A DNA stretch of 64,000 nucleotides from Nocardia ninae NBRC 108245. Lineage in GTDB: Bacteria > Actinomycetota > Actinomycetes > Mycobacteriales > Mycobacteriaceae. The notes beneath the pieces were generated by a model. It did not search any database. It had not been told where the DNA came from and saw only the letters and a program-made list of their open reading frames with translations. The DNA lies in NCBI RefSeq assembly GCF_007990755.1, contig NZ_BJXA01000027.1, forward strand, positions 1 through 64,000, written 5' to 3'. The position numbers and the translations under genes are program-made. This document shows, in pieces, positions 61,847 to 64,000 of this stretch. How positions within the stretch are numbered: position 1 is the first letter of the stretch; each line of letters opens with the position of its first letter.

Positions 61847-62398
61847 ATGAAGATTCCAACCCCGTTGTCGCCGGCGAGCGCTATTCCTGTCACGGATTTC
61901 GCCGACCCGTGTACCCGTGCTCTGCTGGCGAACAACGGCACCACCACACTCCTGCTGGAGGCCGCCCTGCGCACCTCGGTCACCGTCGTGGTCCACGACC
62001 AATACCTGCAGAGCGCAGGCGAATTGCCGCCGGAGGTCGGTCGGGCCCTGCAGCTGCAGGGGCAGCACAGAGTACTGGTGCGGCACTCGATCCTGATGAC
62101 GCCTGACCAGCGCCCGGTCTCCTGCAACCGGGCAATCATCGCTGCGGCACTCGATAGTCCGCTTTCCGCTCTCGGCGACGACCGGCACACGCCACTCGGC
62201 CGGACCCTGCTGTCGGCCGGTGTCGAACAGTATCGACAAGTTCTGACCACCGGTCACCATCCGTGGCCCCTCGCCGCCGAGTTCCGGGCCGCCGCGGGCA
62301 AGACCTACCTCGTCGGTATCGACGGCCGACCTCGGCTGCACCTGACCGAGACCTACAATCCGGACCTGTTCTCGGCCGATCTGGACCCGGTCACCTGA
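61847..62398 (+). CDS. chorismate lyase-like protein (PF01947 type)
   Basis: 183 residues from ATG 61847 (CGAGGAG). The pattern DNGTTTLLLEAAL-type start, HRVLVRHSILMTPDQRPVSC, then GRTLLSAGVEQYRQVL and a closing YNPDLF segment resembles the UbiC/Rv2949c chorismate pyruvate-lyase fold, which releases pyruvate from chorismate to give 4-hydroxybenzoate. Catalytic residues are not certain here, so the reaction is inferred. It may be a distant relative with another substrate. Confidence 0.5.
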   Translation: MKIPTPLSPASAIPVTDFADPCTRALLANNGTTTLLLEAALRTSVTVVVHDQYLQSAGELPPEVGRALQLQGQHRVLVRHSILMTPDQRPVSCNRAIIAAALDSPLSALGDDRHTPLGRTLLSAGVEQYRQVLTTGHHPWPLAAEFRAAAGKTYLVGIDGRPRLHLTETYNPDLFSADLDPVT

Positions 62399-62483
62399 CG
62401 GGACGATCGGCCGCAGTGCCGCGCATCCCCGGCGGATCTACCACCTACCGACCTGTGCATCGTGATTGTGAGACGGTGGAGTC

Positions 62484-62660
62484 ATGAATCGGCTCGGGAA
62501 CGCGACCTCTCCGTACCTGCGGCAGCATGCGGACAATCCGGTGCATTGGCAAGAGTGGGATGCGGCGGCGCTGGGGGAGGCGCGGGAGCGCGATGTGCCG
62601 ATTTTGTTGTCGGTGGGGTATGCGTCGTCTCACTGGTGCCAGATGATGTCTCGAGGCTAA
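62484..62660 (+). pseudogene. truncated yyaL (DUF255 thioredoxin-domain) gene
   Basis: The frame begins MNRLGNATSPYLRQHADNPV, the conserved N-terminus of the roughly 670-residue YyaL/DUF255 family, and stops after 58 codons. It reaches ILLSVGYASSHWCQMMS, where the family reads ACHWCHVM: the first Cys is Ser and the following residues diverge, then the stop codon appears. The reading breaks at the edge of the Vsr/methyltransferase island. In M. tuberculosis this gene (Rv1084) follows Rv1083. Confidence 0.85.
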
Positions 62661-62681
62661 AACTCGTCCGCACAACATCTT

Positions 62682-63533
62682 TCAGTAGACCGAGTCGCCT
62701 TCTTGCCTTGTCTGGTTGCGGAGGGCGGGCACATTGGGCGTATGTGCCGCTTGCTGCCGCGTTTGCGCTGCGCGCCGCTCTTGAAGGAGTTGTTCAATGA
62801 GATTAGCTGCTTTCCCGACATCTTCGTGTTCCCAGACTCGTACGACTGCCCAGCCTGCCTCGATCAATCGACCGGTGGTTTCGTGGTCGCGTGCCTGATT
62901 GCCGACGATTTTTTCCCGCCAGAACTGCTCGTTTCTCGTAGCGGACCGGTAGTGGTCTGGGCATCCATGCCAGAAGCACCCGTCGACGAACACCGCGACT
63001 CGGTCACTGTGGAACACAAGATCTGCCCGCCGTCGGAATTCTGGTATCGGTCGAGAGTCAACCCTGTAGCGCAGGCCGCGCTGGTGTAGCAGGCGCCGAA
63101 GAGCCAGTTCAGGGGTTGTGTTCTTACTTCGGTTTCCCTGCATAGAGGCTCGGACTGCCTTAGATGAGGCGGTCGAATCCGGCGGAAGCGGTGCCTCGGT
63201 CAGAAGACCTCGTTCCCTCGCACGACGCCAGGCGGCCGCGAGGTTTTTGCCGCGAGTCTCATGCTCGACTTCACAGATGTATCGCTCGATAGTCCTCCCG
63301 CCCTGAGACCATCTGAGATATGCGCGGACGCGACGTGTCCTTCGGTAGAGTCGGAGACTAACTGAAGCGCGCGCTAAACGTCCGTTGCCGAGAACTATCG
63401 TGCGACGTTGCCGCCCGCCAGCCGCCCGATCCTGCTCAATCGCCGGGACCGCCGCATCGATGCGCCTTTTGTAAGCTTGTTCCGGCGGTAGCCGGTCCTT
63501 CCAACGTCCCGTATCGCGCGGGCTGGTCCGCAT
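62682..63533 (-). CDS. vsr: very short patch repair endonuclease (Vsr) with N-terminal extension
   Basis: 283 residues from ATG 63533, 4 bp after the methyltransferase stop. The C-terminal part from about residue 128 is a Vsr domain (NRSKNTTPELALRRLLHQRG, the ADLVF catalytic Asp, VFVDGCFWHGCPDHY and EKIVGNQARDHETT), which nicks beside T:G mismatches left by 5-methylcytosine deamination. Vsr alone is about 140-150 residues; here an Arg-rich domain of about 125 residues (RAYLRWSQGGRTIERYICEV) precedes it. The gene lies in a lower-GC island that interrupts yyaL. Confidence 0.88.
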   Translation of the reverse strand: MRTSPRDTGRWKDRLPPEQAYKRRIDAAVPAIEQDRAAGGRQRRTIVLGNGRLARASVSLRLYRRTRRVRAYLRWSQGGRTIERYICEVEHETRGKNLAAAWRRARERGLLTEAPLPPDSTASSKAVRASMQGNRSKNTTPELALRRLLHQRGLRYRVDSRPIPEFRRRADLVFHSDRVAVFVDGCFWHGCPDHYRSATRNEQFWREKIVGNQARDHETTGRLIEAGWAVVRVWEHEDVGKAANLIEQLLQERRAAQTRQQAAHTPNVPALRNQTRQEGDSVY

Positions 63534-63537
63534 GTGC

Positions 63538-64000
63538 TTAATGTCCCACAGATGCGAGTGCGTCCGCCACGGCTCGAGCGAAAAACTCCCCCAGGGCGAC
63601 TGGCACGGCATTGCCGAGTTGTCGCATCTGTTCACCCCGAGGTCCAGATCCACGCCAGTCGTCAGGAAACGTCATCACTCGCGCTGTCTCACGAACTGTC
63701 ATGTACCGATGCTTGTAGCTCTGGCCGTCCTTCTCTCGTTCGTCCAGAAGCATTACCGACTCACCTCCAGGCACGCCGTGCACGCCTGCTTTCACGGTCT
63801 TAGCGGGACGATCCAATTCATTCGGGGTGTGCCCTTTATAGATTCGCGCACCTGGCCATCCGATATGATCAGATATCCCCTTCGACTCTCCAAAATTGAA
63901 CTTCTCATGGAGTCGGCTCAAGTCGACTGGTGGCAGGGCGGGAAGGGGTATCTTTGAATCTGTGCCAAAACCTTGAATCGCATCTCGCAACGTGCGGAAC
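63538..64000 (-). CDS. DNA (cytosine-5-)-methyltransferase, C-terminal part (cut by window end)
   Basis: The frame is open through the window edge, so the N-terminus and catalytic PCQ motif are not visible. The C-terminal 150 residues include RPAKTVKAG (motif IX region), RYMTVRETARVMTFPDDW and GNAVPVAL (motif X), as in C5 methyltransferases of restriction systems. It is immediately upstream of vsr, the usual pairing, since Vsr repairs damage caused by this methylation. Confidence 0.9.
   Translation of the reverse strand, partial: FRTLRDAIQGFGTDSKIPLPALPPVDLSRLHEKFNFGESKGISDHIGWPGARIYKGHTPNELDRPAKTVKAGVHGVPGGESVMLLDEREKDGQSYKHRYMTVRETARVMTFPDDWRGSGPRGEQMRQLGNAVPVALGEFFARAVADALASVGH

Follow-up and report, generated by a model that had tools for sequence, protein, structure and literature searches.

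How can a restriction-modification (R-M) island occupy the 5′ part of a conserved gene while that gene persists in the host? The question is raised by the right-hand edge of the stretch analysed here (the window, positions 1-64000 of the 101,895-base contig C27 of the 9.7-Mb genome of Nocardia ninae NBRC 108245, hereafter G000), where yyaL, a DUF255 gene, begins in the usual way and stops after 58 codons beside a Vsr-methyltransferase pair. We found that the island at yyaL leaves a complete gene, accompanied by a long direct repeat, by recurrence of such insertions in the genus, by an end point and an adjoining arm shared in 12 genomes and by mosaicism of the 5′ end of the gene. On balance, we consider it probable that a small island lodged in the 5′ part of yyaL carries the R-M/Vsr module as its cargo, and that a carried 5′ segment rebuilt the gene by crossover. 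The features concerned are listed below, in window coordinates or, where marked, in coordinates of C27.

61847-62398, plus strand: host gene encoding 183 aa, on the left side of the island; the same gene in the same order is present in the sister genome G079 (93% DNA identity), and no Pfam family was found (210-aa frame scanned).
62467-62648, plus strand: left repeat copy, made up of the 5′ end of the host yyaL and the region upstream of it; its left flank is continuous with G079.
62484-62660, plus strand: yyaL/DUF255 stub of 58 codons (Pfam PF03190, 4e-24), ending just past the HWC codons.
62631-62648, plus strand: degenerate end-point sequence CACTGGTGCCAGATGATG, which in most other carriers reads CACTGGTG[TC]CA[TC]GTGATGG; no match to the conserved arm follows it.
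62682-63653, minus strand: Vsr mismatch endonuclease, start codon uncertain (TIGR00632, 119.5 bits against a cut-off of 97.85; PF03852).
63538-64000 and on to C27:65085, minus strand: C5-cytosine DNA methyltransferase, start codon uncertain (PF00145, 6e-47; TIGR00675 above cut-off).
C27:65107-65886, plus strand: GIY-YIG protein, whose match to the Eco29kI-type family PF09517 falls below the curated cut-off (28.5 against 30.8 bits).
C27:66117-66887, plus strand: HEPN-like protein of 256 aa, with RHCLxH kept in 3 of 3 aligned sequences.
C27:67204-69252, plus strand, outside the window: intact yyaL, 682 aa (253 bits, stop-free frame).

The 58-aa product of the stub matches DUF255/Thioredox_DsbH at residues 2-57 (profile positions 2-57 of 163), and its stop codon follows directly after YASSHWCQMMSRG; the first-pass annotation had accordingly been right to read a yyaL start at 62484 with family-like codons and then a break. 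Its proposal that an island was inserted in yyaL agrees with the repeat and with the left flank shared with G079, but the gene is not merely split, since the downstream frame is complete. Likewise, yyaL does lie past the far end of the island, at C27:67204, but as a complete gene that has a start and first codons of its own and zero internal stops, rather than as a remainder. That the island has broken yyaL is effectively ruled out by this 682-aa gene 4.7 kb to the right of the stub, the product of which shares 98% amino acid identity with that of G079. The direct repeat (182 nt, 95%; window 62467-62648 and C27:67187-67368) covers the upstream region and the 5′ end in both copies, which are identical from -11 to +136 of yyaL (148 nt; positions count from the gene start), with mismatches clustering at both ends. 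Because the intact yyaL lies on the same contig and is linked to the stub by this repeat, the stub and island are not a chance arrangement. The target gene in G000 is intact with the island-side upstream region and N-terminus, and the supplied codons equal those of the host. Adjoining yyaL is a minus-strand gene for a protein with HAMP and guanylate/adenylate cyclase domains (L007 9263-10849, where position p is window position p+60000).

Across Nocardia, the 5′ part of yyaL is a recurrent landing site with varied cargo. A yyaL match was present in all 148 genus genomes searched. For the survey, the upstream region was taken from 93 genomes (12 kb in most cases, shortened in some by contig ends), picked by yyaL similarity, assembly quality or presence of a GIY-YIG relative and not by inserts; the remnant in G121 had been seen beforehand. 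Seven loci were added, namely G000, its sister G079, and G004, G027, G130, G049 and G024, fetched for a junction hit. A profile of the yyaL 5′ end detected a second copy within 12 kb in 10 of the 93 genomes (G121, G115, G063, G139, G046, G072 (twice), G050, G088, G143 and G018), and at 21 kb, after extension, in G042. A second copy of the gene's own 5′ end lay upstream in 16 of 95 yyaL loci and in 6 of 487 control open reading frames (ORFs) from the same regions; with G000, G079, G004, G027, G130, G049 and G042 removed, which had entered as the window's genome and its sister or had been fetched or extended on account of their inserts, the yyaL figure was 9 of 88 (p=7e-5). An island with AbiE and a Type I R-M system is shared by G063, G088 and G130 (families were run on the G063 proteins only). 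Non-defence cargo occurs too: read by eye, the cargo of G049, G050 and G120, and a large part of that of G042, appears metabolic.

With a BLAST query running to +400 of yyaL, the second 5′ copy ends at +165 in G000, at +166 in G139, G046, G072 (twice) and G088, and at +169 in G063; in G042, G018, G004, G027, G130, G049 and G024 the end was judged from alignments only. An arm of about 58 nt (TTTARGGTTACWAG...) follows the core and is common to 12 genomes (13 junctions). A profile trained on these 12 genomes and a 30-nt plasmid row also detects a decayed copy in G121, independent of the training (E=0.002), and gives no match in G000, G079, G115, G143 and G013. The exact junction pattern has 7 matches in an 84,980-species collection, all of them in Nocardia. 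When up to 2 mismatches are allowed, 13 of the 148 genus genomes have it, 11 of them upstream of yyaL on the same contig; the G024 match lies at a contig break beside a stub, and that of G068 (other contig, 2 mismatches) was judged to be due to chance. A longer pattern of junction plus arm was found in 2 of 301 family genomes, both of the same genus as G000. Since the stub end and the arm are both island-borne, their constancy is expected under any enzyme.

Two related arrangements deserve mention. In G072 (L118), two tandem islands lie at -5.8 and -3.4 kb of yyaL, each opening with a stub and arm, and their cargo includes a PIN-domain gene. Plasmid NZ_CP107850.1 of Nocardia sp. NBC_00511, which encodes a MobF relaxase and an integrase, has an attP-like fragment in which the region upstream of yyaL, the 5′ end of the gene, the core and the arm are present but the remainder of yyaL is missing; a transposase gene follows (L176 15001-15200).

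The 5′ end has a history distinct from that of the remaining gene. The islands of G063, G088 and G130, whose left flanks are unrelated to one another, diverge by 3-4% at -600 to -200, and the 200 nt that precede the gene by 5-7%; inside yyaL, divergence is 3-7% over the first 60 nt and then rises to 9-26%, the stretch 60-120 accounting for 10-13% and later ones for as much as 26%. Among 100 genomes, the correlation between distances in the 5′ window and those in the rest of yyaL is r=0.38, as against 0.57-0.74 for other windows. The three strongest changes in divergence rate among 37 disjoint close pairs fall at +104 to +189 (log-likelihood ratio, LLR, of 39, 27 and 25); the next has an LLR of 8.6, and weaker ones occur throughout yyaL. 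Crossovers are not confined to the core: the 2-unit support intervals lie at the core in two of five host pairs (143-167 in G120/G009, 147-165 in G130/G089) and before it in three (108-114 in G120/G116, 101-122 in G058/G065, 101-127 in G008/G065), and the island trio gives 49-129, 43-140 and -2 to 92, the last for G088/G130. When left stubs were compared pairwise (n=10, the short ones of G139, G046 and G042 being dropped), those of G063 and G088 proved to share a near-identical tail from +105, differing at 1 of the 56 positions from +110 onwards but at 29 of the 110 before them (LLR 11.5); the tail of the G130 stub differs, though its arm is the nearest to that of G063. Likeness over the codons at 147-166 proves little, because conservation there extends to every pair (a mean of 6% among non-carriers). 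G120 (L085), compared with G009 (L082), combines a foreign 5′ end of yyaL with a 10-kb block of metabolic-looking genes upstream of the gene, and no stub is visible.

The variation in crossover position is what homologous recombination inside the yyaL segment that the islands carry would produce. In the mechanism that we propose, islands would carry at one end the upstream region of yyaL and ~55 codons from its start; when this segment crosses over with the host yyaL, the host 5′ end would be stranded as the left stub and, by the same exchange, a complete yyaL rebuilt on the right. Most islands appear to descend from one family, the carried segment of which ends at the H-W-C-H-V-M codons. Many of the crossovers were probably simple homologous recombination, free to fall at any point of that segment, irrespective of whether the family goes back to a site-specific enzyme; a founding event of that kind at the core, with gene conversion afterwards, may have taken place. 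Elements of a comparable kind are SXT in prfC and the integrative and mobilizable elements (IMEs) in dusA, for which parts of PMC8409611 describe the promoter and N-terminus of the target as being rebuilt by the element. Judged by sequence, the yyaL islands would qualify for this 5′-end-restoring type, as the yyaL frame is intact and the 5′ ends in G063, G088 and G130 are of the island type. However, dusA elements encode integrases, whereas none was found in the yyaL islands by Pfam or by-eye reading, and at yyaL, in contrast to SXT and the dusA IMEs, crossovers vary and the supplied 5′ end is a homolog of the gene's own.

Several observations weigh against this account. The control ORFs of the survey averaged less upstream DNA (7.8 kb) than yyaL, swapped 5′ ends occur without a visible stub in G120 and G061, and no free circular form was seen. 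Ends depart from the common position in G050 (+107), G121 (+57), G143 (+153), G115 (+158) and G079 (+19), and the pattern match in G013 is confirmed by neither the arm profile nor the 5′-copy profile. The G000 island itself lacks a match to the conserved arm and has a degenerate end point, and its copies are identical over 148 nt, where other full-length carriers differ by 2-37% per window; because of this identity, it may be of other origin or gene-converted. Finally, the insert of the sister G079 is not the same one and has its break points elsewhere (-199 to +19, with a 218-nt repeat of 93%), its cargo (L046 9568-12985) matching the defence candidate PDC-M68A/B and ABC-3C domains. The comparison of strains that the first-pass annotation had recommended for fixing the borders was consequently of partial help: the left flank is shared, but G079 is itself filled, so that no clean empty site of the species is available. 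We infer that the armless G000 island is a diverged member of the family.

Strict site-specific integration, in which the H-W-C-H-V-M codons (about +147 to +166) are the cutting site of a recombinase acting in trans or since lost and the island-borne arm with the 5′ end serves as attP, would explain the shared end point and conserved arm despite unrelated cargo, the tandem islands of G072, the crossovers at 143-167 and 147-165 in two pairs and the attP-like fragment on the plasmid. It nevertheless seems rather unlikely, since the intervals 101-122, 108-114 and, in G088/G130, -2 to 92 exclude the core and, from +105 on, the stubs of G063 and G088 have an island-type tail in common. Moreover, no recombinase or integrase was found with Pfam among 19 proteins, comprising the four of the G000 island, where a rightward search for an integrase had been suggested, and 15 of six other inserts; other ORFs were read by eye or by crude motif scan only. 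A distinct possibility, although one falling short of probable, is that an integrative and conjugative element (ICE), an IME or a plasmid integrated at yyaL and later lost its own integrase, with the cargo left behind between its flanks, which would be a version of the family's founding compatible with rebuilding by crossover. The flanked, apparently integrase-less and tandem layout resembles the definition of cis-mobilizable elements (CIMEs) in the relevant part of PMC5704250, namely flanked islands without integration or transfer genes, in tandem arrays, and the integrase-bearing MobF plasmid holds the yyaL 5′ end, core and arm. Unlike in CIMEs, no parent ICE or IME was found at yyaL and different cargoes share one arm; no integrase-bearing relative was seen at yyaL in the fetched loci (mostly by eye), and the plasmid integrase does not track the carriers.

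Nobusato and colleagues are said to have described, in 2000, an R-M insertion with a long target duplication. A long duplication of this Kobayashi type, restricted to G000 and G079 and unrelated to the arm-bearing family, would likewise flank an R-M module with a long direct repeat. In its favour are the long perfect repeat of G000 and the repeat of 218 nt that G079 has at different break points, and insertion of R-M systems with long, variable target duplications is a pattern described in parts of PMC3031569. We regard it as unlikely here: the G000 stub end at +165 is within a base or two of the family end point, the sequence past each perfect-repeat end still resembles yyaL, and the yyaL end point, unlike in such duplications, recurs at one place in one gene, followed by the arm in 12 genomes, though not in G000. 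Quite improbable, in our view, is a cassette-like system of integrase-less islands that have in common the ~58-nt arm and a mobile 5′ end of yyaL, trade places in trans at the codons of the yyaL active site, stack in tandem and swap defence cargo between species, driven by an undescribed recombinase, with later gene conversion blurring the crossovers.

Between the repeat copies, the G000 island consists of four genes, those for Vsr and the C5 methyltransferase on the minus strand and those for the GIY-YIG and 256-aa proteins on the plus strand. Read over its full length, the island shows nothing of the larger modules (Z1-type ATPase, PD-(D/E)XK, AIPR proteins) that the first-pass annotation had considered: no match to such a family was obtained for any of the four genes in Pfam, PADLOC or NCBIfam. 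The minus-strand pair was correctly recognized in the first-pass annotation, as was its lower GC, which drops from 0.64-0.72 to 0.57-0.61. The 256-aa protein gave zero family matches in profile searches; its R-H-C-L-x-H sequence we take to be the HEPN motif. GIY-YIG relatives occur in 8 of the 148 genus genomes, G000 included, and are accompanied by the methyltransferase and Vsr in all seven others and by the 256-aa protein in two of these seven (within the stretch fetched). Gene content suggests that the cargo is a Type II R-M system with Vsr repair of deaminated 5-methylcytosine, possibly backed by a HEPN RNase. As in Eco29kI-type GIY-YIG Type II R-M systems, a C5 methyltransferase adjoins a PF09517-matching protein, but here the score is just under the Pfam cut-off and Vsr, sometimes with the HEPN-like gene, is joined on. 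In G124 (L051 6760-10510), an intact tRNA-Gly(CCC) gene and a degenerate copy of it (91 nt, 87%) enclose a related R-M set, and reading by eye of the ORFs of at least 110 aa listed between them brought no integrase to notice; flanking by a gene duplicate is therefore not unique to yyaL.

These results raise the question of whether islands that bear the 5′ end of their target need a recombinase of their own. As the 5′ end of yyaL has been repeatedly swapped between species, yyaL 5′ sequences are unfit as vertical markers in Nocardia. At the same time, yyaL provides a defined chromosomal address for defence-gene searches in a large actinobacterial genus.
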